Source of the DNA: Eisenbergiella porci
GTDB lineage: Bacteria; Bacillota; Clostridia; Lachnospirales; Lachnospiraceae
Assembly (NCBI RefSeq): GCF_009696275.1
Contig: NZ_VUMI01000037.1
Span: 1 to 55,602, forward strand
DNA length: 55,602 nucleotides
Reading direction: 5' to 3'
Of the stretch, positions 23,474 to 45,930 are shown in pieces. Position 1 is the stretch's first letter. Every line of letters begins with the position of its first letter. Made by a program: the position numbers and the translations under genes. The notes under the pieces were generated by a model that worked only from the letters and a program-made list of their open reading frames with translations, ran no database searches and was not told the origin of the DNA.

Positions 23474-23845
23474 TTAGTCTTGCCCCTGTGCAGCTGCCTC
23501 CTTCAGCCGCGAAAAGCTCTCGTCGCTGATGATGTGTTCAATCCGGCAGGCGTCGGCCTCCGCAGTCTTGGGGTCAACGCCTGCGGCGATAAGCTGCTCA
23601 GTAAAGAAGCAGTGACGCTTATAGATTTTTTCAGCCATCTCGCGGCCCACATCGGTCAGATGGAGAAAGTGATCTTCGTCCATCGTAAGAAAGCCGCCGT
23701 CTTTCAAAGTGTTTACTGCCACACATACGCTTGGCTTTGACACTCCCATGTGCCGGGCCACATCTACGGAGCGCACCATACCCGTTTTCTTATGGAGAAC
23801 AAGGATGGTTTCCAGATAGTCCTCCCCGGACGCATGAAGTTTCAT
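23474..23845 (-). CDS. DtxR/IdeR-family metal-dependent repressor
   Basis: A 123-residue regulator with an N-terminal winged helix (SGEDYLETIL, then VDVARHMGVSKPSVCVAV) and a short dimerisation domain ending after the metal site DACRIEHIIS. The C-x2-E-H arrangement is the primary metal site of the iron-sensing DtxR/IdeR type; manganese-sensing MntR usually has E-x2-E-H. The SH3-like third domain is absent. It is the last gene of the uptake operon, so it would repress its own operon when metal is plentiful. The shared operator TTAGTTnnnGCTAACCA resembles DtxR boxes, which makes this protein the main candidate binder. Confidence 0.88.
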   Translation of the reverse strand: MKLHASGEDYLETILVLHKKTGMVRSVDVARHMGVSKPSVCVAVNTLKDGGFLTMDEDHFLHLTDVGREMAEKIYKRHCFFTEQLIAAGVDPKTAEADACRIEHIISDESFSRLKEAAAQGQD

Positions 23846-23869
23846 GGAACATCTCCCTTCTAAAACAAT

Positions 23870-25603
23870 TTACACAGCCCAACCAAGACTCTCCTGTTGG
23901 ATATGGAACAGTTTATGGTACAATCCGTTCTTTTTCATCAATTCATCATGGGTACCGTGTTCCACCAGTCTACCGTTATCAAGAACGAGAATTTGGTCGG
24001 CATCCACAACGGTACGAAGCCGGTGAGCAATCATAATGACCGTCTTACCCTCCACCAGCTTTGCAATGGCCCGCTGGATTAAAACCTCGTTCTCCGGGTC
24101 AAGAGATGCTGTTGCTTCATCAAGAAGAATAATCGGGGCATCTTTCAGCAGAGCGCGGGCAATGGAGATTCGCTGACGTTCTCCGCCAGAAAGAGTGCTG
24201 CCGTTCTCCCCCAAGATAGTCTGATAACCATCCGGCAATCGCTGGATAAATTCGTTACAGTACGCTGCCTTTGCCGCTGCCATGACCTGCTCTTCGGTAG
24301 CGTTCATGTTGCCTACGCGGATGTTATTAAAAACAGTGTCGTTGAACAAGGTCACATCCTGAAATACAAAGGACATACAGCGCATCAGGTGTTCCGGTTC
24401 AATGGTGCGAACATCCATACCACCAATGGAAATCTGACCTTTTCTTACATCCCAAAAGCGGGCAATGAGTTTGGAAATTGTGCTTTTGCCGCTACCGGAA
24501 GGCCCTACCAGGGCTGTTACGCTGCCAGTTGGAATAGAAAAAGATACATCCTTGATAACATCGTCCTGATTGTATCCGAAAGTGACGCTTTTCAGTTCAA
24601 TGTCATACTTGGATACATCCTTATCCTCGCCCTCCATAGCGGGCGTGGTTAGCAGGGTACGCATACGGTTGGTAACAGTCCCCAAATGAAACAGAGAGGT
24701 TAACTGCGAAAGGATGGCAAGGATTGGGCCGTAAATCTGCGTGGAGAACATGAACAGCACCAGCAAAGGGAGCAGTTCAATTTGACCGCCAGTTATCAGT
24801 ACCGTCCCGATAAAAATGGTGATACCAAGACCTGCTTGCAGAACCAGGCTGGCTCCCTGAACCAGAATACCAGAGGCCAGTTCCACCCTGATGGCGATTT
24901 TTCTCATGGCTTGGAGTGCTTTATCCAGCGTAGAGAAACGGGAACCACCAAGACCACAGGCTTTGATAATCTTTATACCTTCCAAGTATTCCTGAATCTG
25001 GCTGGACGCCTCCAATTTCACATCCACCTGTTTGTCAAACAGACGGAGTTGCAGTTTGCGTCCGCACCAGATGATAAGAAATGTGATCGGCATCGTGCAG
25101 AAAATCGCAAGGGCCATTCTCCAGTCAAAAAATGCCAGACAAATACAGATCAGGGTGACAGAGATAATATTTGCGATCAGCGGCGGAATGGTACTGCTGA
25201 GCATGGATTCCATGCTGCTGCAATCCGCCATCATGTTTGTGGTAATATCAGATAAATCTTTTGTGTTAAAGAAGCTCATGGGGAGCTTGCGAAGATGTTC
25301 TGCGATCCGAAGTCTGGTCGTGCTGGCCTCTTTATAAGAAGCAATGTAGGTTTTTCTATAATCATTTTTTGCAGCCAGGAATACCAGAATAGCCGCAACC
25401 ACTCCCAGTCCCAGCAGCTTCCACAGTGCGTCCCATGAAATTGCCTCTCCGGTGAACGGTTTCAGCAGTTCCCAAAAGAGTAGGCAGGCCACCATTGAAG
25501 GAAGCAGCAGCACAATATTGGTTATTGTGCAGGCTGTAATTGCTTTTTTTAGGTCGGAGTAGCCTTTCTCCGACAGCATTAACTTTTCTTTCAGCTTACT
25601 CAT
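23870..25603 (-). CDS. Fused permease-ATPase ABC half-transporter B (siderophore-import type)
   Basis: A 577-residue protein with six membrane segments in the first 320 residues and a nucleotide-binding domain with Walker A GPSGSGKST, signature LSGGERQR and Walker B IILLDEATASLD. Exporter-fold half-transporters that pair and lie beside ECF genes, AraC and DtxR regulators resemble YbtP/YbtQ and IrtA/IrtB, which import ferric siderophores despite the exporter fold. It starts three bases after its partner and most likely forms a heterodimer with it. Import direction and cargo are inferred from context, not shown. Confidence 0.85.
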   Translation of the reverse strand: MSKLKEKLMLSEKGYSDLKKAITACTITNIVLLLPSMVACLLFWELLKPFTGEAISWDALWKLLGLGVVAAILVFLAAKNDYRKTYIASYKEASTTRLRIAEHLRKLPMSFFNTKDLSDITTNMMADCSSMESMLSSTIPPLIANIISVTLICICLAFFDWRMALAIFCTMPITFLIIWCGRKLQLRLFDKQVDVKLEASSQIQEYLEGIKIIKACGLGGSRFSTLDKALQAMRKIAIRVELASGILVQGASLVLQAGLGITIFIGTVLITGGQIELLPLLVLFMFSTQIYGPILAILSQLTSLFHLGTVTNRMRTLLTTPAMEGEDKDVSKYDIELKSVTFGYNQDDVIKDVSFSIPTGSVTALVGPSGSGKSTISKLIARFWDVRKGQISIGGMDVRTIEPEHLMRCMSFVFQDVTLFNDTVFNNIRVGNMNATEEQVMAAAKAAYCNEFIQRLPDGYQTILGENGSTLSGGERQRISIARALLKDAPIILLDEATASLDPENEVLIQRAIAKLVEGKTVIMIAHRLRTVVDADQILVLDNGRLVEHGTHDELMKKNGLYHKLFHIQQESLGWAV

Positions 25604-25606
25604 AGA

Positions 25607-27421
25607 TCACACCGCCTTTCCCGTACTGATTTTCCAGTTGATCGACTCCGTATAGCTGCTCCACATCTGCGCGTATTTTCCACCCTTCTTCAGCAACTCG
25701 TCATGGGTGCCAGATTCAATCAGGTGTCCTTTTTCCATGACAAGGATCTGGCCAGCGTTGCGAATCGTAGACAGACGATGGGCAATCATTACAACCGTTT
25801 TATTCTGGATTAGCTTTTCAAAGGCTTTTTGAATCAGGTACTCATTTTCCGGGTCGCTGAATGCGGTTGCTTCGTCCAGTACGATGATAGGGGCATCCTT
25901 TACGATAGCCCTTGCAATGGCAATCCGTTGGCGTTCACCACCTGAGAGATGAACGCCGGTGCTTCCAATCACAGTCTGATAACCGTTTGGAAGTTGCTCG
26001 ATAAATTCGTGGCATCTTGCCGCCTTTGCCGCCGCAATCACCTGTTCCTCCGTAGCATCTGAATTTCCCATGCGGATGTTATCCAGGATGCTCTGTTTGA
26101 ACAGGAACGTATCCTGAAATACGAAGCTGACCTTATCCATCAGCGCATCCAGAGGAATATCCCGAATGTCAACGCCGCCGATCTGAATACTTCCGTCCGT
26201 CACATCATAAAACCGGGAGATTAGGCTGGCGATGGTACTTTTACCGCCACCGGAGGGGCCGACAATGGCTGTCACCTTGCCCTGATCCGCAAAGAAAGAA
26301 ACATGAGACAGGGCCTTGACCTGGGAATCGGCTTCGTAGGAAAAGCTGACATCCCGGAAAGCAATCCCATAGTTTTCGATTGCTTGCGCCGTACTCTTTT
26401 CGGGCAGGGCCGGGATACGCAGGATTTCATCCATACGCTCCACGCTGCCGTCAATCTGCGTAAAGGACTCAGAGATATACATGATTTTATTCAGGACACC
26501 GGAAATCGCATGGACAATAATCAGGTAGAAAATAAATGTCAGCGAATACTCCCTGAAATCCGTAGTGTGCATCCCGATCAGAATGCCCACCGGAATCAAA
26601 AGCAGATAAATATTGTTGATGATCGTTGTAAAAGCAGGCATACAGTTCTGCCAGCCCAATGCGTACTCCAACACAAAAGAGGTATAGTCTGTAATGGATT
26701 TGCCCAACCGCTTAAAGGAATCGGCGGTCTGATTAAATGCTTTGATCTCCGACATACCACGTACATATTCCACAGAGGCGCTGTTCATGTTCTCCTGGGC
26801 GGTCTGAAAACGGTGCATTTTTTCCTTTGCTTCTCCGTTGAAGCCCGCAAACTGCACGATAAAGGCCAGAACAATACCGACCAGACAAACCACGCCATAC
26901 CGCCAGTCAATTCCAAGAAGAATGATAACCAGAACAAGCGGCGCGACCAAAGAGGCCACAAAGTCCGGGAGCTGGTGAGCGATGAATTTCTCAACACTTT
27001 CAATGTTTTCGTCCATGATTTTTCTCAGTTTGCCGCTGCCCAAGGTCAGATGATACCCAAGCGGAATGTGCATAATGTGGTCGGCAAAGGCCACCTTCAA
27101 TTCATAAAGCGTTCCAAACGCTGCAATGTGGGAACACAGTAAGGCAAAAAAGTAAAATACGATGTTCCCCAAAATACCAGCCAGGGCAAGCCAGCCCCAG
27201 GTTGAGATTGCAGAAACATTCAAGAGCGACATATCCGGGTAAACAAACAGGATTTCCCGAACGATGTAATAAATTGATAAATAAGGTGCAAAAGAACAAA
27301 TTGCTGCCAGTGCAGCCAGAAACCCTGATAGAAACAAAAGCCATTTATGACCCGAAGCTAATTCCAGGCAACGCGCCAGTCCAGTCTTCGCCTTCGGCTG
27401 TTTCTCATTTTGCCGTGTCAT
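25607..27421 (-). CDS. Fused permease-ATPase ABC half-transporter A (siderophore-import type)
   Basis: A 604-residue partner of the next gene. About six membrane helices lie in residues 25-340, then an ATPase with Walker A GPSGGGKST, signature LSGGERQR and Walker B IIVLDEATAFSD. The AFSD after Walker B replaces the usual A-S-L-D and is also seen in siderophore-importing half-transporters, as far as I recall. It begins two bases after the ECF ATPase gene ends, so all are one transcript. The most probable role is uptake or reductive handling of a ferric chelate at the cytoplasmic membrane. An exporter role cannot be excluded. Confidence 0.85.
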   Translation of the reverse strand: MTRQNEKQPKAKTGLARCLELASGHKWLLFLSGFLAALAAICSFAPYLSIYYIVREILFVYPDMSLLNVSAISTWGWLALAGILGNIVFYFFALLCSHIAAFGTLYELKVAFADHIMHIPLGYHLTLGSGKLRKIMDENIESVEKFIAHQLPDFVASLVAPLVLVIILLGIDWRYGVVCLVGIVLAFIVQFAGFNGEAKEKMHRFQTAQENMNSASVEYVRGMSEIKAFNQTADSFKRLGKSITDYTSFVLEYALGWQNCMPAFTTIINNIYLLLIPVGILIGMHTTDFREYSLTFIFYLIIVHAISGVLNKIMYISESFTQIDGSVERMDEILRIPALPEKSTAQAIENYGIAFRDVSFSYEADSQVKALSHVSFFADQGKVTAIVGPSGGGKSTIASLISRFYDVTDGSIQIGGVDIRDIPLDALMDKVSFVFQDTFLFKQSILDNIRMGNSDATEEQVIAAAKAARCHEFIEQLPNGYQTVIGSTGVHLSGGERQRIAIARAIVKDAPIIVLDEATAFSDPENEYLIQKAFEKLIQNKTVVMIAHRLSTIRNAGQILVMEKGHLIESGTHDELLKKGGKYAQMWSSYTESINWKISTGKAV

Positions 27422-27423
27422 TC

Positions 27424-28902
27424 CTAACCCTCCTTTTGGTCATACCCAATTTTTTCTAAAAGAAGCTCTGCTCCTCTGATTTGAAAATCATCAGTAATAT
27501 ATCCGTTTTCAAGGCGCATTGCCCGCTCGCAACAGGCAAGCGCACACTCTGCGTCATGGGTAATGACGATAATGGTGCGCCCCATTTTCGCCAGTTTGCG
27601 GATCATCCGGCTGACATTCCGCATATTCGTGCCATCCAGCCCACTTGTAGGTTCGTCAAGTATGATAATAGGTGCTTCGTGTATCAGAGCTACGCCAAGA
27701 GCCAGCCTCTGCTTTTGCCCTCCTGACAGCGTAGAGGGATGCTGTTTGATGAACGGCGTCAGTTCCAGGGCTTCCAGAATTTCTTCTGCCGCTTGCTTCC
27801 GCTCCAGGCTGGCCTCTGAGCCAGTAGTCAGTTCGTCCAGCAAATCCTCACCGAATAGCTGACTGTCTAAATCCTGGGGAATGTACCAGACCTTTCCCAA
27901 GCGGTCTTTGGGTCTGCAATGCTTTCCGAATAAAACGACTTCGCCGGATTTCTCTTTCAAAAGCCCTGCCAAGATTCGCCCTATGGTGCTTTTGCCCGTT
28001 CCGTTGGGGCCGATCAGGGCAATCACTTCTCCCTTACGGCATTGAAAGTCAATATCCTTAGCTACAATTGTTTCACCAAAAGAGTGGTTCAGTTTTTTCA
28101 CTTCCAGAACAACCTCACTGGTTGCCGCAGACGGGATTTCCGTCTGCTCAATCTGATGCAGGTTAGGAGTGCGAAGCCCCAGCGCCTGGATTTCCTTATT
28201 AGTCAGAGCTTTCATCTGCTGTGCAGTAAATTCCCGCACAATTTTCCCTTTCTGGACACACAGGAAACGGTCTGTCAGATCCATCAGATAATAAAGCCGG
28301 TGTTCCGCTATAATGATGGTTTTTCCCTTCTTCTTCAAATCGTGAATAATATCTGCAAAGCGGTAGGTAGATGCAATATCCAGATTGGCAGACGGTTCAT
28401 CCATGACATAGATTTCAGGATCAATCGCCTCTGCGGATGCAATCGCAACCTTCTGACGCATTCCATAGGACAGGCTGTGCAGGCTGTGATCCAAAATATC
28501 CTGAATCTTGATGTTCGCCGCTGCCCGGTGAACATGGTTCTGAATTTCCTCATGGGAATAACCGTAGTTCTCACAGCCAAAAGCAATCTCGCCTGCGACC
28601 TCATTGGCAAAAAACTGGCTCCTCGGGTCTTGAAATACATTTCCTGCGATTTTGCCGCGTTCCCAGGAAGGAATCTCTTTCAGCAGTTTTCCATCCACAA
28701 AAACCTCACCGCTTAATTCTCCCTCGTAAAAGTAGGGGATCAGGCCGTTAATTACTCTTGTCAAAGAGCTTTTCCCACTTCCCGATGGGCCGGTCATAAC
28801 AATGACCTCCCCGGCGGCAATGTCTAATGATATATGTTCCAGTTGATTTCCGTTCCCGCCATAGGAAAAGGTCAGGTCACGGATCATAATTTCTTTTCCC
28901 AT
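27424..28902 (-). CDS. ECF transporter ATPase, two fused ATP-binding domains (EcfA-A')
   Basis: A 492-residue cytoplasmic ATPase. Domain 1 has GPSGSGKSS, LSYGMRQK and VMDEPSANLD; domain 2 has GPNGTGKST, LSGGQKQR and ILDEPTSGLD. Domain 1 has a non-canonical signature (YGMRQK in place of GGxxQR). It powers the membrane T component and the substrate-binding S component encoded just upstream. AGGAGG lies six bases before the ATG at 28902. It is a dedicated (group I type) ECF system because S, T and A are in one operon. Confidence 0.9.
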   Translation of the reverse strand: MGKEIMIRDLTFSYGGNGNQLEHISLDIAAGEVIVMTGPSGSGKSSLTRVINGLIPYFYEGELSGEVFVDGKLLKEIPSWERGKIAGNVFQDPRSQFFANEVAGEIAFGCENYGYSHEEIQNHVHRAAANIKIQDILDHSLHSLSYGMRQKVAIASAEAIDPEIYVMDEPSANLDIASTYRFADIIHDLKKKGKTIIIAEHRLYYLMDLTDRFLCVQKGKIVREFTAQQMKALTNKEIQALGLRTPNLHQIEQTEIPSAATSEVVLEVKKLNHSFGETIVAKDIDFQCRKGEVIALIGPNGTGKSTIGRILAGLLKEKSGEVVLFGKHCRPKDRLGKVWYIPQDLDSQLFGEDLLDELTTGSEASLERKQAAEEILEALELTPFIKQHPSTLSGGQKQRLALGVALIHEAPIIILDEPTSGLDGTNMRNVSRMIRKLAKMGRTIIVITHDAECALACCERAMRLENGYITDDFQIRGAELLLEKIGYDQKEG

Positions 28903-28912
28903 TCCATTCCTC

Positions 28913-29614
28913 CTATAAAAGACAGCAGCACACGGCAGCTCCCACGCTGACAACAATCAAAACGCAATCCAGCACAGCGATCCGGCTGACATAGTAGCTT
29001 TCTTTCTTGTAGGGGCTTTCAATTCCCCTGACTATGGAAGAAGCGGCTAACTCGTCCGCGATCTTTAAGGAGCGAAATACCATCGGGACAATGGCATATT
29101 CCAATGTGTCCATTGGGTGTTTCAAAACATTGCCAACCGATTTTAAGAAACCACGAATTTTCATGGCCTCCCTGACTTCTCCAAATTCATGTAGCACAGT
29201 CGGAGCAAAGCGGAGCATGACAATCAATACAAGCATGATACGGGTAGGAATCGGCATTTTTCGCAGGCAGGCTGTCAGTTTCCCGGACGGGATTTTAGCC
29301 AGAAGATAAGCTGGCATAGCGGGAAGCAACAGCTTGTAAATCATGCTGAGTAGTAGCGGAGAGGGGATGCTGATCTGATATTTTGTCTCGATCATCAGCC
29401 ATACAATCGCCACTAAATAGACCGCAAAGCATCCCAGAGCCTGTTTATATAAGCCGAACCAGCAGAGGATTAAAAAGATCAAAAAGCTAAAACAACCATG
29501 CCCTAAAAAACTTGTTGTAAGAAAGGTCACGATGCAGGCGCACAGCGTAAGGAAAAGAACTGTGCGCCCATCGATCTGGTCAATGCGTTTTTGCTTTTTT
29601 TCTCCGGCCATCAT
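28913..29614 (-). CDS. ECF transporter transmembrane T component
   Basis: A 233-residue membrane protein with about five hydrophobic helices. Two cytoplasmic coupling motifs of the A-R-G kind are visible, MKIRGF and SIVRGI, which contact the two ATPase domains. Its start (ATG 29614, or 29611) overlaps the stop of the S gene by four bases, and it ends ten bases before the ATPase start. It links ATP hydrolysis to toppling of the S component in the membrane. Confidence 0.88.
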   Translation of the reverse strand: MMAGEKKQKRIDQIDGRTVLFLTLCACIVTFLTTSFLGHGCFSFLIFLILCWFGLYKQALGCFAVYLVAIVWLMIETKYQISIPSPLLLSMIYKLLLPAMPAYLLAKIPSGKLTACLRKMPIPTRIMLVLIVMLRFAPTVLHEFGEVREAMKIRGFLKSVGNVLKHPMDTLEYAIVPMVFRSLKIADELAASSIVRGIESPYKKESYYVSRIAVLDCVLIVVSVGAAVCCCLL

Positions 29615-30222
29615 CCTACAATACCTGCTTTTTGGAAATGCTTTCTAAGCAACCGCTGGCCGAACAATGTACCAAGAATTGCAAGAACCGCAGTAATGAC
29701 AACACCCAGAAGCATCAGCTCCGGAGAAGTCACCATAGAGAGCTGCATATTCAAGGTATTTGCATCAAAACCGCTGCTTGCTGCCATTTCCTGATAGCTG
29801 TCCCAAGACCACCACAGCGGTACGGCACAGCCTACAAAATTTCCGATTGAGTTGACCATCCAGCCAATTCGGTTGCGAACTGCACTTCGGTATGTATTCT
29901 TGCCAACCATGCATAACTCGGCAATGAGGGCTACAATCAAGAAATAGGGAACCAAGAACATATAACCCATAACACCTTGGATTAGTCCATAAACCGTAGC
30001 CCAAGCAAACAACAATCCGTGTTTGTTAATGCGATTTGCCGCAACCAAATAAAATGTTGCTCCAATAAAGGCATCAATACCAGCAGAGCCGTATAAATAT
30101 ACTGCTGGGAAAGGCAATGTAACCGTACCAATCACCATTGCAATTGCGAAATTGATGACCATCATTGCGGCAATCGTCATAATATCGCGAACGCCAAGTT
30201 TTTTCTTTAACGTTTGTTCCAT
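29611..30222 (-). CDS. ECF transporter substrate-binding S component (MptD/Trep_Strep type)
   Basis: A 203-residue hydrophobic protein with about six membrane helices (GVRDIMTIAAMMVINFAIAM near the start). It matches the MptD/Trep_Strep class of putative S components. Members beside YbtPQ-like ABC genes occur in siderophore clusters of streptococci (equibactin locus), as far as I recall. The true start is 30222 with AAGGAGG upstream; a longer frame to 30276 runs into the operator palindrome. Substrate unknown. It is the first gene after the operator at 30241-30286. Confidence 0.82.
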   Translation of the reverse strand: MEQTLKKKLGVRDIMTIAAMMVINFAIAMVIGTVTLPFPAVYLYGSAGIDAFIGATFYLVAANRINKHGLLFAWATVYGLIQGVMGYMFLVPYFLIVALIAELCMVGKNTYRSAVRNRIGWMVNSIGNFVGCAVPLWWSWDSYQEMAASSGFDANTLNMQLSMVTSPELMLLGVVITAVLAILGTLFGQRLLRKHFQKAGIVG

Positions 30223-30240: not shown

Positions 30241-30311
30241 TATAATAGCGTTGTGGTTAGCCAAAACTAACCACAACGCTATTATACAGTAGTTCGCATC
30301 CGCTAACTACT
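30241..30311 (-). promoter_or_regulatory. Promoter and DtxR-box-like operator of the ECF/ABC operon
   Basis: A perfect 20-bp palindrome (30241-30260 with 30267-30286, loop CCAAAA) contains, on the minus strand, the shared 17-mer TTAGTTttgGCTAACCA (30254-30270). A perfect -10 TATAAT (30281-30286) directly precedes it. No good -35 is seen. In its place lies a second inverted repeat, AGTAGTT/AACTACT (30288-30294 and 30305-30311), a plausible site for the AraC-type activator. The operator would cover the transcription start. Confidence 0.75.
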
Positions 30312-30348
30312 CCAAATGAAAAGACAGTCGGCCCAAACAGCCCAAAAG

Positions 30349-31305
30349 TTAATTTGATTTTTTTACTTTACGATAATCCTTTGGAAGCATTCCAAACACT
30401 TCTTGAAAAGCCCTCGCAAACTTACTAATATTTGAATAACCAAGTTCACCAGCTATTTGAGTGATTGATTGATCTGTTTCCTGCAAATAAACAGCCGCAA
30501 GATTCATTTTATATTTTTTGATATGAGCATAGGGCGTATCACCATAAATCTGCTTGAAAATAGCTTGAAATGTGACCTTGCTCATTGGTTCTTTTCGCAG
30601 GAGTTCTTCTATGGATATTTTTTTGTCGAGGTTTTCTATAAGCTCTTGACGGATGCGTTTGATGATTTCAATTTGCTCTTTAGCATAATATGTTGCCTCA
30701 TATTGATCTTCTATCCGCAGTTGTTTGATATGATAAAAGAGTTCCAATAATTTGATGCGGAAGTAATCTTGCCCTTCAACACCTTTTGCAGCGTACAATT
30801 CATCGAAGATATGTAACAACCGCTGTGGTGTCCGACATAAAAACCACTTTTTTTCTAATTCCAATTCTCGTCCGAGATTTAGAACATCAATGTTGTAGTA
30901 CGAAAAAATCTGTTGTGTTTCCACATCGACAGAATCCTTATCAATCACACAGCTTAGTCCTACACTATATCCAAAGGGAAAGGAATAGGCCGCAGGAATA
31001 TTAGCAAGGGCATTGATGCAAAATTCTCCCTCTTTCATGTGGAAAACTTTATTATTTCTTAGCTCAAACTCAACGCGTCCTTTTTGGTAATGACGGATTT
31101 CGATGATATTCTTATTAGGAATAGGCTCATGGAATGTATCTGAGCAGTTAAAATCCATAAAAATTAAGTCAATACCAGGGAAAAGAGTGTAGTCATAGAG
31201 ACGACCTGTTCCATTACATTTATATTCGATTTGAACATAATCATTATGTTCATCAGTTAGCGTAGCATATTCACCGTACCATTCTGTTCCATGTGACTCT
31301 TTCAC
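30349..31305 (-). CDS. AraC-family transcription activator of the uptake operon
   Basis: A 318-residue regulator with an N-terminal ligand-sensing half of unknown specificity and a C-terminal AraC domain with two helix-turn-helix units (ISIEELLRKEPMSKVTF, then ITQIAGELGYSNISKFARAF). YbtA, a siderophore-sensing AraC activator, has the same neighbourhood and is the closest known analogy. The start is GTG at 31305 with AGGAGG nine bases before. The gene is visibly AT-rich compared with the ICE backbone. It precedes the ECF genes on the same strand but has its own promoter and operator. Confidence 0.88.
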   Translation of the reverse strand: MKESHGTEWYGEYATLTDEHNDYVQIEYKCNGTGRLYDYTLFPGIDLIFMDFNCSDTFHEPIPNKNIIEIRHYQKGRVEFELRNNKVFHMKEGEFCINALANIPAAYSFPFGYSVGLSCVIDKDSVDVETQQIFSYYNIDVLNLGRELELEKKWFLCRTPQRLLHIFDELYAAKGVEGQDYFRIKLLELFYHIKQLRIEDQYEATYYAKEQIEIIKRIRQELIENLDKKISIEELLRKEPMSKVTFQAIFKQIYGDTPYAHIKKYKMNLAAVYLQETDQSITQIAGELGYSNISKFARAFQEVFGMLPKDYRKVKKSN

Positions 31306-31323: not shown

Positions 31324-31373
31324 TGGTTAGCGGTAACTAATTATATGTTAAATTGTTTTTTTGCTCTCGTCAA
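31324..31373 (-). promoter_or_regulatory. Promoter and DtxR-box-like operator of the araC-type gene
   Basis: -35 TTGACG (31368-31373) and -10 TAACAT (31345-31350) with 17 bases between; an alternative -10 TATAAT overlaps (31340-31345). Immediately downstream is the shared operator TTAGTTaccGCTAACCA (31324-31340), where a bound repressor would block initiation. Confidence 0.75.
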
Positions 31374-31617: not shown

Positions 31618-31662
31618 GTGAGAACGGTGGTTGTTCCAAAATTATTCCGATTCAGGGATAAT

Positions 31663-31792: not shown

Positions 31793-31829
31793 GCTGCGCG
31801 TTCTGCGAACGCTTTGGACCATGACCGGC

Positions 31830-33245: not shown

Positions 33246-33262
33246 AGATGGAGCCTCCTTTC

Positions 33263-33298: not shown

Positions 33299-33300
33299 GG

Positions 33301-35315: not shown

Positions 35316-35335
35316 AGATGGGGTATTTGTCCTGA

Positions 35336-35674: not shown

Positions 35675-35676
35675 GG

Positions 35677-39400: not shown

Positions 39401-42400
39401 CTGCCACATTGTTCTGGCTTACAGAGCTTTTGCCGGTGATCTGCCACTCGGCGGTGAAAGAAGAATAGTTGACCTCGATATTGCGCTGGAGATAAAACGG
39501 CGTATCGAAGGTCTCATACATAAACTGCTGGATGTACTCTTTGTCGATCCAGGTAGCGCCCAGGCGCACCTCAATCTCCGAAGCGTCCAGGTCTTTGGGC
39601 TGGGCTGCGGTAAGAGCCTCCACATTGACTGCAAAGGAAGGGTCCTGCTGTGCTGCCCGCTGTGCCTGACGCAGCTTGCGCCGCACATTGCCGGACAGGT
39701 ATTCGTCGGCTGTTACATAATGGGGAGTGCCGTCTTTCTCCACCTGTCCCGGTACACGGAAGATCACGCCTTGCAGCTCGGCGGCCAGTTCGTCGCTGGT
39801 CTTGCCAGTCAGCTCCGACATATACGCCATATCCACACAGGCTTTCTCCGCGATAGAGACGGCAAGGGCTTCACTGGCGGTATCCACGGTGTCCACCGCC
39901 TTGTGTGGCTTGATGGTGCGCTTGGTGAACATATCCGCCTTGCGTTCCAGCTTGCCGTCCTCGTCAATGACTTCCAGCGCGCAGAGCAGATAGTAGCTGG
40001 AATCATCGGCAAAGGCCAGTCGGTTCGCCCGGTCATTGATAAGACCATATTTTGCGGAAAAGCTGTCATAGAGCCGGTTCAGTTCAGCCTGTTTATCCTG
40101 GATGGCGCTGTCCGGTGTGGCGGCGTCCATTTGCAGATCAATGAGCTGCTGGACACATTCCCGCAGCCCCACCAGCCCTTTTACACGAGCTTCGGCGGTG
40201 GCATTCAAGTCAGGCCGCACCATACGGCTATTTTCACGGTAGTACACATCACCGTCCACAACGGTGTAGGAGTAATTTTTCACATTGGGGTCGGCGGGAA
40301 TGGAGGTGTCGATGGCTTCGCCCTCACCCAGCTCCGGCAGCTCGGCTTCCTGGTAGGTGCCGCGAATGTACTTCACGGCATCATGCAGCTGATCGGCAAG
40401 CTCCAGCCCCTCAATGGGATTCACGGTGTAGTCCATGCCATGGGCGGTGCTTTCCGGTTCCTGTCGGCCCAGCACCATTTCCGGGTGGTCCAGGAAATAG
40501 CGGTTGATGGCAAATCCGTCCTCCGTCTGTCCGGTCTGGGTCCACTCTGGTGCAATGTCCAGCGGACGGTCACGCTTTTGCAGGAAAATGATGTCCGAAA
40601 CGACCTCTGCACCAGCGTTTTTCTTGAAAGCGTCATTGGGCAGACGGATGGCTCCCAGCAGCTCGGCACGTTGAGCAAGATACCGGCGCACGGTGGAATC
40701 CTTGGCGTCCATCGTATAGCGGCTGGTGACAAAGGCCACCACGCCGCCGGGACGCACCTGGTCGAGTGCTTTGGCAAAAAAGTAGTTGTGGATGCTGAAA
40801 TTCAGCTTGTCATAGGCTTTATCTCGAACCTGATACTGGCCGAAAGGCACATTACCAATGGCAAGGTCATAGAAATCTCGCCTGTCGGTGGTCTCAAACC
40901 CGGCCACGGTGATGTCGGCCTTGGGGTAGAGCTGCTTTGCAATCCGTCCACTGATGGAATCCAGCTCAACGCCATACAGACGGCTGTTTCGCATTTCTTC
41001 CGGCAGCATACCGAAGAAATTGCCCACACCGCAGGACGGCTCCAGGATGTTGCCGGTCTCAAAACCCATGCGGCCCACGGCCTCATAGATGGCCCGGATT
41101 ACCGTGGGACTGGTGTAGTGCGCGTTGAGGGTGGAACCTCTGGCGGCAGTATATTCTTCCGGGGTCAGCAGCTCTTTCAACTGGGTATATTCCGCAGCCC
41201 ATGCGGGCTTCTCCGGGTCAAAGGCGTCGGCCAGACCGCCCCAGCCCACATACCGGGAAAGAATTTTCTGCTGCTCCGGCGTTGCCTGTTCAGTGGTTTC
41301 CTCCAGATATTTCAGCAGCTTGATTGCCGCGATATTGGCCTGAAACTTGGCTTTCGGACCGCCTTCGCCCAGGTGGTCGTCGGTGATACGGAAATTCTCA
41401 GCGGTGCGGCGCAGGTTGTCCTTGTATTCCCCGTAAGCGGCTTCCTCGGCGGCTCTGGCATTGGGGAAGGTCTGCCACTCGCCGTTTACCTGAATGGAAA
41501 CGGGGTGTTCGTCCAGCACTTCATCCAGAGTTTTTTCCGGCTCAGCGGCAGATGCAGGCGGCTCTGGCTCATTGGTTCGCAGGGTCTGAACAACCACATC
41601 ATAGGGCAGATGGTTCTTGTCACCGGGATAAACTGTCACCGGCTCAGTGGTAAAACCGGGCTGTGCAGGTTCCGGCTTCTGCTCCAAATGCTGACGAATG
41701 ACTGAAATCGGCTCCACCCGGAAGATGGGGAATCCCACCGCATTTGCAAAGGTCACATCTTGAAGTTCCACCCGGCCAATATCCGGCTCCAGCTTGCTGA
41801 CCCGGAAAGTGCGCCCATCCAATGCAAAGGTGGTCTCGCCGGGAATTAGGTTGTGACGGGCATACTCGGCATCGGAAAGCGATTGGTTCGACTGCTCCTG
41901 TTCTTCAGCGGCAATCTGCTCCACATCCGCCATCACGCGCTGAATGAATGCGTCATTGCCCAGCTTTTCTTCGTCCACCAGCTCGCCATTCACAATACCG
42001 CGCTCGGCCAGCGCCTCCCGGATGGCGATGGGGTCGATGTTGTCGAACCGGTCCTGTTCTGCTTCGGTGTAGAACCGGTCCTCCTTGATAAGCTGAGCGA
42101 TCCGGCGCTGTACCTTGGGCCAGGGCAGCTCAATTCCCTCCGGACTTCCGGCGCGGATCACAAACAGGCTCTTGCTGTCACTGCCGCTGTATTCCTGAGC
42201 CAGCCATGCAGCGGTATCTTTTTCCCGCCCATGCTGTTCCATGTAGCGGACAACGGCGTGTTTGCTCTGAATATCTCCGTTCCATGCGCGGATGGCATCG
42301 TCAATGTCATCCTGCGAGAGAGGACGCAGCATTTCATGGAGCCGTGGGTAGGTTTCGTCAATTACTTCCCGGTGCAGCCGTTGGCGGAACTCCGGCACAT

Positions 42401-44882
42401 CGGAATAGAGCCGAATCAGCTCCAAATCACCGGAGCCGAGAACGGCACGGCGGATGGCGGCATTGCCCTCAATGACAGCATTTTCATGGTCGCTGTGACC
42501 GCAGGCGTTGCGGTATGGCACATCCTCCATCACAGCGGCAAGCACAGTGGGTTTGTACTGCTCATGCAGTTCCCGAATCGTGGGAGCTGGCTGTTCCGGC
42601 ACATCCTCCTGCAAATCGTCAAGGTTTGTATCCGGCTGCTGGGACTGGACTTCATCTTCCTCCGCCAGCGCCTTTTCCGCCTGGATTTTGTCGTACTCTG
42701 CCTGTTCCTGTTTGGTGAGATAGCGTCCCTTTTGAATCAGATCAGTAATCCGTTTGGCAGCTTTCTCCCATGTGAAATGCACATCCGGGCAGCCATCCTT
42801 TTTGTAACGCAGACCTTTTCCATCGTGATCTTCCCAGCTGCCCCCAGCGCCGGACAGGGCGTGAGAGTGTCCGCCAGTGCCGTACTCATTTTTGAGAAAA
42901 TCCACCTTTTCTTTATCCGTATGGGGCTTCTGGAAAAAGGTAAAAATCCGGCCTTTACCACTTTCAAATCCGCTGCCTCTGGTCATGGCGGCGTCGATCT
43001 CATCCTCGGTAATGAAGTGCTGGACGGTTGGCACTTGGGAAAGGTCCGAAGAAAAAGTCCTGCGGGACAGGGACAGGTCTTTCAGGTTTTCCCAAATCTC
43101 TCTCGGTTTGTGGTAGTGGAAGCGCAGCAACTCCCGGTCCTGCTGGTAGGCCGTCCAGAAGGCAGCGTATTCTTCCGCAAGGGTCTGACGGAACTCCGGG
43201 CGGTTCAGCTGCTCGGCAAGCCATGCGGTTTCTTCCGGGAACCCGTTTCTCTGAATACCGGACAGACAGGACAGATACCCGGAATCTCTGGCTTTATCGC
43301 TGAAATCGTGGTACAGATGCCAAAGTTTTTCCGCAAGGAGGGAGCGTTCATAGCCCGCCGCCTCAGCCAGCTCCACATTGGCGGCAAACTGGCCCTCCTG
43401 CAAAAGCTGGCCGATACGCTCGGCGGCGCTCTCCCAGGAAATGACCTGGGCGGACTTGTCGTAACGGGCTGTTTTGCCGTGGGAAAGATGGATGCCGTCC
43501 TCGGCATACCATGCGGTGACGCTGCCGATCCCGTTGCCGCCGTGATACAGATTTTTCAGAGTGTCTGCGATTTCGGCGGTGGATTTCTGCTTCTCAAAGG
43601 CCGCCACAATGCGCTCCCTTTGGCGATCCGTGTTGCCGCCCAGCCGCAGCACATGGTCAATATCCGCCTGGGCAAAAGAAAAAGCAGAGGATGTTTTCAC
43701 ATTCTCTGCTTCATCTATGATTCGGATTTGTTCGTTTTCGGAGAGGAAGAAACTCAGCTGTGAATAAGCTCCGCCATCAGAATCTCCTCGGCCTGCGCCT
43801 TGCAGGTGTTCATCAGGCCCACCCAGCGCATCGGATCGCTGGCTTTCAGCTGCTCCGTCGCGCCCGCGTCTTTCGCCAGCTGGGGCATCAGCTGCTCCAG
43901 ACGGCTCTGTGCGGTCTCGTCGATTTCCAGCAGGTGTGGGTACAGCTTCTCGCTCATCAGCAGCTGGTTGTATAGGATGGGACGGTGTTCCTTGAGGTAT
44001 GCTTTCCGCATCCTGCCGTACTTGCCCAGGGGCTTCTCCGGCTGTTCGCTCAGCTTCAGGTCGGGAATCAGATAATCTCCGTTCTGGATGTAGTTCATGG
44101 GATTCTTCATGTTGGGGTCTCCTTTCTTTGATGGCCTCACGCTCGGCATTTCGGATGGTAACGCCGATCTGCCGCAGCACCTGTTGATTGATCTGGCTGA
44201 CCGCCGTTCCCAACGCCCCGATGGTAGACGGGGTGTTGAAATCAAAGATCGCCATGAAATCTTCGTGGTCGAAGTAGCGTTCCGGCTCCAGTCCACAGCG
44301 GGACATCAATGCGTAAGTGATGCTGACGGTGGCGGCTGCCTTAAACTGTACTTCGATGTTAAATTCATCATATTCCTCTAAAAAGGAATCGTCAACGATA
44401 TAAAGAAAGTCCTGACGATGCTCGTTCCAGTATTCGCCCGCCAGTTTTCCGGCCACCGCCTCCAGCTGCTGGGCAAGGTCATCGCCGCCAACCTCGTAAG
44501 TGCGCTCCAGCATGGCCGACACAGAATCCCTGTGCTGTTCCTCCAGCTTCCACAGCCAGGGGGTGCGGGAATGTTCGCGGGTCCCGGTGTCCGTGATGTC
44601 GAACACATAGCGCAAACGGGGTTTATCACCGGAATCGTCCACCAGGGCGATACCCTTGGAGCCACGGCGCACATAGCGGCCCATTTTTTCATTCCATAAA
44701 TCATACTCCGCACAGGCGGTAGCGTCGGGGCGCTGGGCATAGATCAGCAGCTGTTCATGGAATGGATACTTGTAAAGGCGGGCAGCAGTGTTCAGAAATC
44801 CCGCCCATTCCTGCCAGCTGCCAGTGAGCTGGGTCGCCACATGGTCGGCCATCTGCCGGTAAAATTCTGTTTTGGATGGCAT
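36486..44882 (-). CDS. Giant DNA methylase-helicase fusion of the ICE
   Basis: A 2798-residue polyprotein-sized gene. Residues 1-250 are an ArdC/LtrC-like N-domain (WAGFLNTAARLYKYPFHEQL). Residues 257-376 are a low-complexity linker that coincides with the nested tnpV. Three related modules follow, each ending in an I-x-x-L-I/L-Q/K pattern (RIGQLLQEGQF, RITDLIQKGRY, RIAQLIKEDRF). An N6-adenine methylase-like fold has LEPSCGVGNFFG near 1280 and GNVPFG in place of NPPY near 1344. The SNF2-type helicase has AHEVGAGKT near 1957, VDEAHNYKN near 2120 and QRKGRIERQGNQN near 2480. It may protect or process DNA during transfer. The methylase motif is degenerate, so methylation is unproven. GGAGG precedes the ATG. 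Confidence 0.9.
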   Translation of the reverse strand: MPSKTEFYRQMADHVATQLTGSWQEWAGFLNTAARLYKYPFHEQLLIYAQRPDATACAEYDLWNEKMGRYVRRGSKGIALVDDSGDKPRLRYVFDITDTGTREHSRTPWLWKLEEQHRDSVSAMLERTYEVGGDDLAQQLEAVAGKLAGEYWNEHRQDFLYIVDDSFLEEYDEFNIEVQFKAAATVSITYALMSRCGLEPERYFDHEDFMAIFDFNTPSTIGALGTAVSQINQQVLRQIGVTIRNAEREAIKERRPQHEESHELHPERRLSDSRPEAERTAGEAPGQVRQDAESIPQGTPSHPIQPAADEREAVPTPAGNRRDRTEPSGAADAPAGERRGRDGAAESQRSDALGGPDEHLQGAGRGDSDGGAYSQLSFFLSENEQIRIIDEAENVKTSSAFSFAQADIDHVLRLGGNTDRQRERIVAAFEKQKSTAEIADTLKNLYHGGNGIGSVTAWYAEDGIHLSHGKTARYDKSAQVISWESAAERIGQLLQEGQFAANVELAEAAGYERSLLAEKLWHLYHDFSDKARDSGYLSCLSGIQRNGFPEETAWLAEQLNRPEFRQTLAEEYAAFWTAYQQDRELLRFHYHKPREIWENLKDLSLSRRTFSSDLSQVPTVQHFITEDEIDAAMTRGSGFESGKGRIFTFFQKPHTDKEKVDFLKNEYGTGGHSHALSGAGGSWEDHDGKGLRYKKDGCPDVHFTWEKAAKRITDLIQKGRYLTKQEQAEYDKIQAEKALAEEDEVQSQQPDTNLDDLQEDVPEQPAPTIRELHEQYKPTVLAAVMEDVPYRNACGHSDHENAVIEGNAAIRRAVLGSGDLELIRLYSDVPEFRQRLHREVIDETYPRLHEMLRPLSQDDIDDAIRAWNGDIQSKHAVVRYMEQHGREKDTAAWLAQEYSGSDSKSLFVIRAGSPEGIELPWPKVQRRIAQLIKEDRFYTEAEQDRFDNIDPIAIREALAERGIVNGELVDEEKLGNDAFIQRVMADVEQIAAEEQEQSNQSLSDAEYARHNLIPGETTFALDGRTFRVSKLEPDIGRVELQDVTFANAVGFPIFRVEPISVIRQHLEQKPEPAQPGFTTEPVTVYPGDKNHLPYDVVVQTLRTNEPEPPASAAEPEKTLDEVLDEHPVSIQVNGEWQTFPNARAAEEAAYGEYKDNLRRTAENFRITDDHLGEGGPKAKFQANIAAIKLLKYLEETTEQATPEQQKILSRYVGWGGLADAFDPEKPAWAAEYTQLKELLTPEEYTAARGSTLNAHYTSPTVIRAIYEAVGRMGFETGNILEPSCGVGNFFGMLPEEMRNSRLYGVELDSISGRIAKQLYPKADITVAGFETTDRRDFYDLAIGNVPFGQYQVRDKAYDKLNFSIHNYFFAKALDQVRPGGVVAFVTSRYTMDAKDSTVRRYLAQRAELLGAIRLPNDAFKKNAGAEVVSDIIFLQKRDRPLDIAPEWTQTGQTEDGFAINRYFLDHPEMVLGRQEPESTAHGMDYTVNPIEGLELADQLHDAVKYIRGTYQEAELPELGEGEAIDTSIPADPNVKNYSYTVVDGDVYYRENSRMVRPDLNATAEARVKGLVGLRECVQQLIDLQMDAATPDSAIQDKQAELNRLYDSFSAKYGLINDRANRLAFADDSSYYLLCALEVIDEDGKLERKADMFTKRTIKPHKAVDTVDTASEALAVSIAEKACVDMAYMSELTGKTSDELAAELQGVIFRVPGQVEKDGTPHYVTADEYLSGNVRRKLRQAQRAAQQDPSFAVNVEALTAAQPKDLDASEIEVRLGATWIDKEYIQQFMYETFDTPFYLQRNIEVNYSSFTAEWQITGKSSVSQNNVAAYTTYGTSRANAYKLLEDSLNLRDVRIYDTVEDADGKERRVLNAKETTLAAQKQQAIRDAFKDWIWKDPERRRTLVRQYNEEMNSTRPREYDGSHIVFGGMNPSITLREHQLNAIAHVMYGGNTLLAHEVGAGKTFEMVAAAMESKRLGLCQKSLFVVPNHLTEQWASEFLRLYPSANILVTTKKDFETHNRKKFCARIATGDYDAIIMGHSQFEKIPISRERQERLLYEQIDEITEGIAEVQASGGERFTVKQLERTRKSLEARLEKLQAESRKDDVVTFEQLGVDRLFVDEAHNYKNLFLYTKMRNVAGLSTSDAQKSSDMFAKCRYMDEITGNRGVIFATGTPVSNSMTELYTMQRYLQYDRLQELSMTHFDCWASRFGETVTALELAPEGTGYRARTRFSKFFNLPELMNLFKEVADIKTADQLNLPTPEVEYHNIVAQPTEHQQEMVKALSERASEVHRGSVDPSVDNMLKITSDGRKLGLDQRIVNQMLPDEPGTKINQCVDNIMQIWRDGDADKLTQLVFCDISTPQAAPSKKAAKQLDNPLLHGLEEAIPLDEPEPAFTIYEDIRQKLIAQGMPADQIAFIHEANTEVRKKELFSKVRTGQVRVLLGSTAKMGAGTNVQDRLVALHDLDCPWRPGDLAQRKGRIERQGNQNPLVHVYRYVTEGTFDAYLWQTVENKQKFISQIMTSKSPVRSCDDVDETALSFAEIKALCAGDPRIKERMDLDVEVAKLKLMKADHQSKQYRLEDQLLKYFPQEIETNKGYIQGFEADLETLAAHPHPADGFAGMEIRGDVLTDKENAGAALLDACKEVKTSDPVQIGSYRGYAMSVEFSAWKQEYTLLLKGQMTHRATLGTDPRGNLTRIDNALAQMPQRLEAVKNQLENLYQQQAAAKEEVGKPFPFEDDLRVKSARLVELDTLLNIDGKGHTQPETVVAKSARPSVLDSLKRPVPPRSLEKKPKQHEEVR
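43754..44110 (-). CDS. tnpV: TnpV, nested in another frame of the giant gene
   Basis: A 118-residue protein (MKNPMNYIQNGDYLIPDL, HRPILYNQLLMSEKLYPHL, DPMRWVGLMNT) matching the transposon protein TnpV of clostridial elements. It lies wholly inside the 2798-residue gene, same strand, frame shifted by one. AAAGGAG sits eight bases before its ATG, so it is set up for translation. A broken second copy exists at 31484-31617. The function of TnpV is not established. Confidence 0.8.
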   Translation of the reverse strand: MKNPMNYIQNGDYLIPDLKLSEQPEKPLGKYGRMRKAYLKEHRPILYNQLLMSEKLYPHLLEIDETAQSRLEQLMPQLAKDAGATEQLKASDPMRWVGLMNTCKAQAEEILMAELIHS

Positions 44883-44919
44883 GGTGTTTTGTCCTCCTTT
44901 CAGTTTTGGGTAAAAGAAA

Positions 44920-44947
44920 AGCAGGAAACCTTGAAAGATTTCCTGCT
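44920..44947 (-). terminator. Terminator of the methyltransferase cassette
   Basis: AGCAGGAAA and TTTCCTGCT form a 9-bp stem, followed on the minus strand by TTTCTTTTAC. It separates the cassette from the giant gene. Confidence 0.75.
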
Positions 44948-44964
44948 GCTTATACGTTTATTAC

Positions 44965-45588
44965 CTATTTTTTTGCCAGAATACAGATATGATGTTTTTG
45001 GTTTTTGTGATCGATGGTGATTTCTGAAAATCCTGCTTCAGTTAGAAAAAATTCTAACTGCTCTACAGTATAAATTTTCATGTTGTCAATGATTTTCAAC
45101 CACTTATCATCCGCTTTATTTGTACCATCGGATTCATTCACAATTAAAAACCTGCCACCTTTTTTGAGGATTTGGTACACCTGTTTAAAACTCTCAAGAG
45201 GTCCCGGCCAGAAATATACAGTTTCAAATGCTGTAGCCAAATCAAAAGTGTCTGCGTTAAAAGGAAGCTGCAAAACATTTGCATGAGTAACCTGCAATCT
45301 TCCGTTTTTAATCGCTTGCTGATTGAACTGTTTTGTTTTTTGGACAGAAATCTCAGAGTAATCTAAAGCATGCACCGTTGCAGCCGGAAATCGCTTTAAT
45401 AATTCTGCTGCATTTCGCCCACCTCCACACCCCAGATCTATGATTTTAGATGGGTGCAATTTTGTAATATGCTCCATCCCCCAATCCGAAACAGCAGCGT
45501 GGCCTTTATTCATACTTTTCACCATAAGTTCGCCCAGCAAGCCTTCTGGTTTTCTTGTGCTATTAAATAATTTTTTTACAATTCCCAT
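44965..45588 (-). CDS. Class I SAM-dependent methyltransferase (cargo)
   Basis: A 207-residue soluble enzyme. Motif I IIDLGCGGGRNAAELL near residue 51 binds S-adenosylmethionine, HALDYSEISVQK is the acidic-loop motif, and DTFDLATAFETVYFWPGP is motif IV. It belongs to the UbiE/small-molecule methyltransferase group. Substrate unknown. It follows a small membrane protein behind a promoter with the same operator as the iron-uptake operon, so it may modify a metal chelator or a compound needed under metal starvation. The cassette is AT-rich and interrupts the usual ICE gene order. Confidence 0.82.
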   Translation of the reverse strand: MGIVKKLFNSTRKPEGLLGELMVKSMNKGHAAVSDWGMEHITKLHPSKIIDLGCGGGRNAAELLKRFPAATVHALDYSEISVQKTKQFNQQAIKNGRLQVTHANVLQLPFNADTFDLATAFETVYFWPGPLESFKQVYQILKKGGRFLIVNESDGTNKADDKWLKIIDNMKIYTVEQLEFFLTEAGFSEITIDHKNQKHHICILAKK

Positions 45589-45617
45589 TTCCCATTTCCA
45601 ACCCGTTCTTGATATAT

Positions 45618-45845
45618 TTATATCTTTTTCCTGTATTCAATTCCTAAAATAAACAACCCAGTGATAAATATGATTGAAAAACAACCGATGGGAACAGCAA
45701 TACCATGTTCAAGCATGGTACAAATCAATCTGCCCGGTGGTGTTATCCAACTCGTTACGGGATTTAAGATACAAGCCGCCAGCAGAATAACAATGCCAAT
45801 CGTTCCACTCAAAGTTAAAAAACCGCCAATTAGTGTTTTTTTCAT
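45618..45845 (-). CDS. Small two-to-three-helix membrane protein (cargo)
   Basis: A 75-residue protein: a hydrophobic N-terminal helix (LIGGFLTLSGTIGIVILLAA), a short polar loop and a second long hydrophobic segment (IGCFSIIFITGLFILGI) ending in a basic tail. No family is recognised. It is the first gene after the operator-bearing promoter at 45880-45930 and is followed 29 bases later by the methyltransferase, so both are one unit. AGAGG lies before the ATG at 45845. Confidence 0.7.
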   Translation of the reverse strand: MKKTLIGGFLTLSGTIGIVILLAACILNPVTSWITPPGRLICTMLEHGIAVPIGCFSIIFITGLFILGIEYRKKI

Positions 45846-45879
45846 AGCATCTACCTCTTTTTATATCCGAAGATATTAC

Positions 45880-45930
45880 TGGTTAGCATTAACTAACTAT
45901 AAATATACCACAACAGGCAGCAATTATCAA
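45880..45930 (-). promoter_or_regulatory. Promoter and DtxR-box-like operator of the methyltransferase cassette
   Basis: -35 TTGATA (45925-45930), 17 bases, -10 TATATT (45902-45907). Directly downstream is TTAGTTaatGCTAACCA (45880-45896), identical at all 14 defined positions to the sites at 30254 and 31324. The position over the transcription start fits repression. Confidence 0.8.

Follow-up and report, generated by a model that had tools for sequence, protein, structure and literature searches.

What makes three separate transcription units of one mobile element share the same short promoter sequence, and which regulator reads it? This question is raised by a 55,602-nucleotide stretch of Eisenbergiella porci DNA (contig NZ_VUMI01000037.1, positions 1 to 55,602; referred to below as the window), which carries an integrative and conjugative element (ICE). 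The units concerned are an uptake operon of energy-coupling factor (ECF) and ATP-binding cassette (ABC) transporter genes that ends in a dtxR-type gene, an araC-type gene, and a unit encoding a small membrane protein and a methyltransferase. In an initial annotation the shared sequence was taken for an operator tying the three units into a single mobile regulon of the ICE. Our analysis indicates that it is very probably a single-dimer operator of the DtxR family, GTTAG-N6-CTAAC, read under iron control by the DtxR proteins of the clade. Judging from the comparisons described below, the units of the ICE appear to join a clade-wide DtxR/iron regulon.

A palindromic element at three transcription units

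The 17-bp operator of the initial annotation, TTAGTTnnnGCTAACCA, is present on the minus strand at 30254-30270, 31324-31340 and 45880-45896, with zero mismatches at each of the three places. The rest of the 6,104,383-base genome contains one further exact copy (C112:16708-16724) and one copy with a single mismatch (C59:39795-39811), both at related araC/ECF cassettes (C, L and G numbers denote contigs of this genome, loci and genomes, respectively). The symmetric element common to all five places is TTAG-N6-CTAA, mostly in the form GTTAG-N6-CTAAC. Only 6 of 97 distinct gene-linked boxes, whose consensus is T-[GA]-G-TTAG-N6-CTAA-C-[CT]-A, contain the 17-mer. The latter is an off-centre slice of the palindrome, and the palindrome is the true core.

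The three boxes of the window, all on the minus strand, lie between the -10 box and the start codon of their respective transcription units. Box 1 (30257-30270) is placed 35 bp before the ATG of the ECF S-component (ECF-S) gene and 10 bp after a TATAAT for which the promoter scan gave no paired -35. Box 2 (31327-31340), located 22 bp before araC, follows a TAACAT by 4 bp, and a TATAAT overlaps its first base. Box 3 (45883-45896; GTTAG-N6-CTAAC) is found 38 bp before the gene of a 75-aa protein and 5 bp after the -10 sequence TATATT, which is accompanied by the -35 sequence TTGATA. The distance of 22 bp to araC recurs in L098, L105 and L106; on C59 and C112 the box is separated from araC by about 23 and 134 bp, respectively. 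Within the window alone, 3 copies of TTAG-N6-CTAA are present (0.53 expected), a number reached by 2 of 100 shuffles. The weight of the evidence therefore has to be sought in the genome and in related loci rather than in the window alone.

The box in the host genome

An operator of the proposed kind would be called into question if its motif were common elsewhere in the genome. TTAG-N6-CTAA proved rare, with 20 places in 6.1 Mb, 11 of which are at iron or ECF-linked genes. All five ECF-S genes of the PF09605 family have a box 23-94 bp upstream, three boxes precede araC genes (on C59, C81 and C112), two are located at feoA and feoB, beside the chromosomal dtxR gene on C133, and one belongs to the methyltransferase unit. 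The control pattern TTAG-N7-CTAA has 17 genomic places, of which 8 represent one repeated sequence and none is at the cassettes; the reversed pattern (142 matches) is a poor yardstick, as its dinucleotides differ. A search with PF02742 detected four DtxR-type genes in the genome, on C81, C59, C115 and C133. The notion of a private operator that ties a single mobile regulon of the ICE was ruled out, because the box also marks feoA, feoB and four other ECF-S genes.

Several additional sites were noted. At C1:252443 (L023:2944-2957) the sequence GTTAG-N6-CTAAC precedes a gene of the flavodiiron type (ODP domain) at a distance of 61 bp, which suggests that this gene is part of the regulon. The same form occurs at C142:6644 (L030:3045-3058), immediately ahead of a gene resembling that of DNA polymerase IV (IMS domains). 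Moreover, two box-bearing ECF/ABC cassettes share a stretch of about 22 kb on C59 (33000-55000); araC and dtxR accompany one of them, and neither gene was seen with the other.

Spacing and position of the box in related loci

A profile built from three DtxR proteins was compared with genome contigs, and the best 80 of the 417 relatives were kept. They originate from Lachnospiraceae, Oscillospiraceae, Christensenella, Peptoniphilus, Erysipelotrichaceae and others, and the identity to the query reaches 94%, which suggests recent transfer. In these 80 loci (1,306,738 bases) TTAG-Nk-CTAA occurs 107 times at k = 6 and 0-13 times at each other k from 0 to 14. Counting 300 bp upstream and 30 bp inside each gene, we found N6 boxes at 38 of 55 ECF-S genes (any other spacing at most 2), 15 of 67 first ABC genes and 10 of 28 araC genes (the last identified with a narrow profile from three AraC proteins). 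The corresponding values for EcfA, the second ABC gene and dtxR are 0/55, 1/61 and 2/74. N6 boxes mark operon starts rather than internal genes. The N10 and N8 spacings were found upstream of the first ABC gene in 4/67 and 2/67 cases, respectively. Over all of these loci (L094-L173) TTAG-N10-CTAA is raised (13 occurrences, the next highest count besides N6 being 8).

In 50 of the 80 loci the operon could be judged, and its upstream genes were classified by Pfam scans. An AraC-type gene is present in 35 of them, 33 with the box, and in a further 13 a TetR-type gene replaces araC, with the box in all 13, several of which are near-copies (L154-L156; L130 and L140; L160 and L161). Neither type of gene was seen in the two remaining operons, one of which has the box. 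These are L126, which is boxless and preceded by a transposase, and the truncated locus L138. These comparisons indicate that the second regulator of the uptake operons is exchangeable while the box and dtxR stay, and that the box is independent of araC. The TetR-type gene was seen in the place of araC, some 70-320 bp ahead of the first gene of the operon, in L111, L114, L117, L122, L130, L143, L154, L160 and L162.

A second sample, chosen by ECF-S (PF09605) and independent of dtxR, comprised 29 loci in addition to one of the E. porci genome, with at most 30 loci taken from the 42 positives among 200 family genomes. N6 was present in 17/29 and N10 in 3/29. Since 8 of the 12 boxless loci have a same-strand ABC gene in the stretch examined, some of the boxless ECF-S genes may be internal to operons.

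DtxR proteins of the window type (profile E<=1e-20) were detected in 40 of 42 family genomes, 22 of which had been chosen for the methyltransferase and 20 not. We examined 16 regions around the chromosomal dtxR gene in relatives. In five of them (L183, L186, L187, L191, L195) feoB is a neighbour of dtxR, and each of these five loci has a box at feoA and/or feoB. One of the other 11 regions has a box near dtxR and ten have none. The five feoB genomes (G001, G007, G012, G017, G107) gave no match to the methyltransferase (E<=1e-50) or PF09605 (E<=1e-25), so the operator exists in hosts lacking such cassette matches. By these comparisons, the box is the common operator of the window-type DtxR family across the sampled Clostridia and relatives, marking feoAB, ECF/ABC uptake operons and many of the methyltransferase units described next.

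The methyltransferase unit

The METHYLTRANSFERASE unit of the window, i.e. the small membrane protein gene and the methyltransferase gene, is located about 14 kb from the uptake cassette and had been assigned to the same regulon in the initial annotation. Matches to the methyltransferase (E<=1e-50) were obtained in 39 of 397 family genomes, E. porci included, and 29 of the 40 other matches were taken as loci. An N6 box was found upstream of the gene within 900 bp in 15 of these 29 loci, within 400 bp in 12/29 and within 150 bp in 8/29, with at most one box at other spacings. The 15 boxed relatives include a 97% identical copy of the window gene (L036) and two that are close to each other (L038/L039). 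These footprints in other genomes bear out the assignment and mark the unit as a member of the regulon.

The methyltransferase gene is accompanied by ECF/ABC genes on six further contigs, which were picked because the linkage was seen, and in Blautia luti (L118). PF09605 is present in 15 of 22 genomes with the methyltransferase vs 27 of 178 without it (Fisher p 4e-7; the test makes no correction for kinship or genome size and assumes that the 200 screened genomes are G000-G199). The neighbours of the methyltransferase include a second methyltransferase (6/29 loci), two types of alpha/beta hydrolase (3/29 each) and a PF01497 binding protein, the last in a single locus; proteins of the ATC-hydrolase family (2/29, plus L118 and L179) are only a lead. 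Relatives with a second methyltransferase, alpha/beta hydrolases and ATC-hydrolase-like proteins were observed at L118:9998-15818, L179, L043, L057, L061 and L175, and L118 carries two boxes in tandem. No NCBIfam model scored over its cut-off with the window methyltransferase, and the processing of thiazoline metallophores by this unit is only a suggestion.

Combination of the modules in other elements

The two split cassettes had been regarded as one functional iron cargo. The backbone found in G046, a genome of another genus, indicates that they are not one fixed cargo. It aligns at 89-93% with positions 31647-49690 of the window, apart from a gap of about 1 kb, and includes the methyltransferase with its box. 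The alignment stops before the araC box, and the araC/ECF/ABC/dtxR cassette of the window is absent there. Roughly 26 kb from the methyltransferase, at L199:11953-18420, G046 has another ECF/ABC operon, distinct from that of the window and preceded at 31 bp by a box. This operon is partly broken (ECF-S in two frames, a dtxR remnant), and a 313-bp piece of the window's ICE (92%) lies near it. The ECF/ABC/dtxR cassette of the window shares 90-94% identity with seven other loci, including C59, along about 7.7-7.9 kb. In G015, on another backbone, 3 kb separate the same ECF cassette from a methyltransferase with 59% identity. Because the alignments place the modules in different combinations in different elements, separate movement of the uptake cassette and the methyltransferase unit is likely.

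The DtxR-type protein and its metal

The dtxR-type gene (23474-23845, minus strand) is the last gene of the uptake operon and encodes a metalloregulator of 123 aa, which contains the DNA-binding and the metal-binding/dimerisation domains (PF01325 and PF02742, both over cut-off) and has no SH3-like third domain. The C-x2-E-H metal site described earlier is present as C100, E103 and H104. The protein is 82-88% identical to those encoded on C59 and C115, and 46% identical to the chromosomal protein of C133. In an alignment with MntR the residues D9, E12, H78, E103 and H104 are kept, and C100 replaces a glutamate. The metal ligands of DtxR/IdeR are M10, C102, E105 and H106, and the cysteine at position 100 is of the kind present in DtxR. 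The window protein differs from the iron-type DtxR/IdeR proteins in having D9 at the M10 position and in lacking the third domain, and from the MntR subclass in having C100 for glutamate and in its score with the MntR model (86.7 bits vs a cut-off of 153), which is nevertheless its best NCBIfam model. The best PDB match is also MntR.

We surveyed 77 sequences, namely the window protein and 76 distinct proteins from the scan, including those of the lone dtxR genes of L163-L173, around which no ECF operon was found. Among scan-derived proteins having a residue at the respective position, D9 is present in 75/75 and C100 in 74/75. In 16 chromosomal DtxR proteins position 9 is N (11) or D (5), and C occupies the 100-position in 16/16. 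Residue 42 of the recognition helix is H or R in 63/76 scan-derived proteins and V in 11/16 chromosomal ones; K37, S39 and, almost throughout, V40 are common to both types. The metal site is mixed, with an MntR-like D9 and a DtxR-like cysteine, and iron is its likely metal, because feoAB is a predicted target and because of the binding assay of EqbA considered below.

Inverted repeat and upstream block at the uptake promoter

Box 1 forms the centre of a perfect 20-bp inverted repeat (30241-30260/30267-30286). Eight homologous cassettes represent two main promoter alleles, in which all 160 pair cells are paired and 7 of the 20 pairs are changed on both sides. Six of these seven two-sided changes distinguish one allele from the other and the seventh is found in L124 only, which leaves a small number of events. 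Covariation, paired cells and two-sided cells were above all 500 shuffles; the number of two-sided pairs (matched by 18/500 shuffles) and the further pair types (495/500 as high) were not beyond the shuffles. As RNA, the 65-nt leader has a predicted fold of -29.3 kcal/mol (z -7.4). The long repeat is not general, since at least 10 of the 14 outer pairs were found in only 9 of 62 ECF-S boxes (null 0.3%). It could act as a 5' stem-loop or, as with EqbA, as a wider DNA operator, or it could stem from the templated repair of palindromes. Just upstream of the -10 box, the alignment of the eight cassettes revealed a block that is mostly invariant between the two alleles (30292-30316, minus strand), a candidate activator site for AraC.

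Gene content of the uptake cassette and the ICE

The genes described here are on the minus strand unless only coordinates of a side observation are given. Upstream of dtxR, the uptake operon encodes the second (23870-25603; Pfam ABC_membrane and ABC_tran) and the first (25607-27421; identified by phmmer) member of a YbtPQ/IrtAB-like pair of ABC transporter halves. With the latter, phmmer matched the YbtPQ chain 6p6i_A (1.5e-104), IrtA 7wiu (2.3e-91) and MsbA 3b5x (8.5e-73); two-domain eukaryotic ABCB chains outscore the bacterial ones by adding up two stretches. By these scores, its nearest bacterial solved relatives are YbtPQ/IrtAB and not MsbA-type exporters, and a role as importer is putative. 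The ECF module consists of a double ATPase, EcfA (27424-28956; two ABC_tran stretches; TIGR04520 1.7e-88, below its cut-off), the transmembrane protein EcfT (28913-29614; PF02361 CbiQ) and an S component of the MptD/Trep_Strep family (29611-30222; PF09605 6.9e-41; TIGR02185 over cut-off). It is preceded by the gene of the 318-aa AraC-type regulator (30349-31305; PF12833 and PF00165).

The ICE backbone includes a relaxase gene (31830-33245; PF03432 4.1e-33) and a gene for a 2798-aa SNF2/helicase-methylase protein (36486-44882; PF00176 and PF04851), which separates the two cassettes. Between the relaxase and helicase genes, a YhcG/DUF1016 nuclease gene was noted at 33722-34762. The methyltransferase unit begins with the gene of a hydrophobic, membrane/lipoprotein-like protein of 75 aa (45618-45845), which gave no match in a Pfam search, followed by that of the class I S-adenosylmethionine methyltransferase (44965-45588; 207 aa; PF08241 2.1e-18); a similar small open reading frame, judged by eye, precedes the methyltransferase in L064. 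Three serine recombinases (16289-21126), all with PF00239 and PF07508, form the integration module. Judged by its genes, namely a PF03432 relaxase, three PF00239/PF07508 proteins and a CD1107-like protein (PF14283), the element is an ICE of the Tn1549/CTn type. No nonribosomal peptide synthetase (NRPS) genes were seen at the locus, the 2798-aa gene being helicase/methylase-like instead.

Comparison with known systems

The sites were expected to take the form of a DtxR/IdeR box, and they do so, with TTAG/CTAA half sites at the spacing of six that corresponds to one dimer. One IdeR dimer is reported to bind a half site with the proposed 14-bp consensus TTAGGNNNNCCTAA, which has the TTAG-N6-CTAA spacing, and DtxR/IdeR operators (TTAGGTTAGSCTAACCTAA) share these half sites six bases apart (PMC8464063). 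The box described here differs in being one dimer unit, with its conserved G and C outside TTAG/CTAA and not inside.

The nearest experimental precedent is EqbA of ICESe2 from Streptococcus equi. EqbA requires a 36-bp palindrome with the core GTTAG-N6-CTAAC, and after EDTA treatment its binding was increased by Fe2+ or Zn2+ and to a lesser degree by Mn2+ (PMC3672683). Metal-dependent binding to DNA is published for both EqbA (PMC3672683) and IdeR (PMC8464063). The equibactin locus resembles the window in several respects: an ICE-borne DtxR-like regulator without an SH3-like domain, an importer of the ferric-siderophore type, the same palindrome core within a 36-bp inverted repeat at the promoter, and a backbone related to Tn1549 and the CTn elements of C. 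difficile (PMC3672683). In contrast, the window has no NRPS locus seen, has araC and a methyltransferase unit 14 kb away, and its box is repeated at three units and common to the host feoAB.

Yersiniabactin uptake is regulated by YbtA and Fur, YbtA acting as an activator beside Fur. This system shares with the window an exporter-fold ABC import pair (6p6i_A) and an AraC-type regulator, whereas the window is of Gram-positive origin, has an added ECF module and DtxR in place of Fur, and has no siderophore synthesis genes seen adjoining. MntR of Bacillus and E. coli is likewise a two-domain protein of the DtxR family with the five aligned residues listed above, but differs in the glutamate replaced by C100 in the window, where the box-bearing genes include feoAB. 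In word searches of open-licence papers we recognised none on this box, on ECF/IrtAB/DtxR cassettes of gut Clostridia or on this methyltransferase. New in the present analysis are the sharing of the operator, a methyltransferase family whose iron box had gone unrecognised, and the covarying 20-bp hairpin at the uptake promoter.

Proposed mechanism and alternative explanations

When Fe(II) is sufficient, a dimer of DtxR (encoded by the ICE, by the host chromosome, or by both) would bind over the start region and block all three units, namely the uptake operon with its ECF and YbtPQ/IrtAB-like transporters, the araC gene, and the genes of the small membrane protein and the methyltransferase. Upon iron starvation the three units would open together, and AraC, itself released, would further activate uptake, a role proposed after that of YbtA beside Fur. 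The units need not travel together, since any DtxR of the clade could read the box. Repression, as assumed in the initial annotation, is a prediction, and so is its attribution to the DtxR of the ICE rather than that of the host.

Several observations weigh against this scheme. Enrichment of the core inside the window alone is modest, 7 of the 20 genomic boxes have no evident iron context (read by eye), and in 30 of the 80 dtxR loci the operon is absent or too short for judging. Boxes are missing from 10 of the 16 chromosomal dtxR regions and, within 900 bp, from 14 of the 29 methyltransferase relatives, including that of G015 (L037) beside the same ECF cassette. D9 follows MntR, as does the best NCBIfam model, though far below its cut-off. 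Finally, the C112 cassette consists of araC, ECF and ABC genes with two boxes and has no dtxR after the last ABC gene; a local DtxR is therefore not needed.

The sites might instead be operators of the AraC-type regulator, serving autoregulation and activation of the uptake operon. Two of the three window sites flank araC, as on C59 and C112, and an AraC-type gene is present in 35 of the 50 judged operons. Yet the box persists in 13/13 TetR-type operons without araC (several of them near-copies) and at the feoAB promoters, the element is a palindrome, and the separate conserved block upstream of the -10 box suits an activator better. An AraC site was rejected on the TetR-type operons and feoAB, and we consider it very improbable. 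There is hardly more of a chance that the box of the methyltransferase unit is fortuitous and the unit unrelated to iron. Its enzyme is a class I methyltransferase of a generic kind, for which no NCBIfam model exceeds its cut-off, about half of its relatives (14/29) are boxless, and it occurs on an ICE backbone without the uptake cassette of the window; however, 15/29 relatives have an upstream N6 box with other spacings at most 1, the gene accompanies ECF/ABC genes on the six linkage-picked contigs and in Blautia luti L118, and it co-occurs with PF09605 (15/22 vs 27/178, p 4e-7, with kinship and genome size uncorrected).

An operator of the DtxR family that responds to manganese, as with MntR, would agree with D9 (75/75 scan-derived proteins) and with MntR as the best NCBIfam model and PDB match. 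This is unlikely given the C, not glutamate, at position 100 in 74/75 proteins, the boxes at feoA, feoB and the YbtPQ/IrtA-like importer, and the stronger enhancement of EqbA binding by Fe2+ and Zn2+ than by Mn2+ (PMC3672683). A somewhat better case, though still a doubtful one, can be made for the host chromosomal DtxR being the only reader of the boxes, with the ICE protein having another target or competing. It would account for feoAB boxes in genomes without ECF-S or methyltransferase matches, for the C112 cassette without dtxR and for the different residue 42 in scan-derived (H/R, 63/76) and chromosomal (V, 11/16) proteins. On the other side, ICE-type dtxR genes end box-bearing operons in many genera, the two types agree in K37 and S39 and nearly so in V40, and for EqbA binding to its own operator, which has this form, is on record (PMC3672683). 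The single-dimer DtxR operator under iron control remains the reading we prefer.

Significance

A broader interpretation is possible, though we hold it only tentatively. TTAG-N6-CTAA might act as a public iron address across Clostridia, by which units on different elements would be wired on arrival to whichever DtxR is present (the host feoAB regulator or an ICE-borne one), the regulon being assembled by independent transfers. The methyltransferase unit and its neighbours would then be an unrecognised enzyme set of iron starvation, perhaps processing imported thiazoline-type metallophores, and the same 20-bp palindrome would form a 5'-terminal RNA hairpin as a second layer of control. This interpretation is made slightly less probable by G046, which has another box-bearing operon near its methyltransferase.

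Such an arrangement would provide a rule for how mobile cargo is regulated in new hosts, namely by bringing an operator that the hosts already use. Iron control of a large uncharacterised set of uptake operons in gut bacteria would become predictable from a 14-bp pattern with few chance matches (20 in 6.1 Mb), and a widespread methyltransferase family is pointed to as part of iron starvation.

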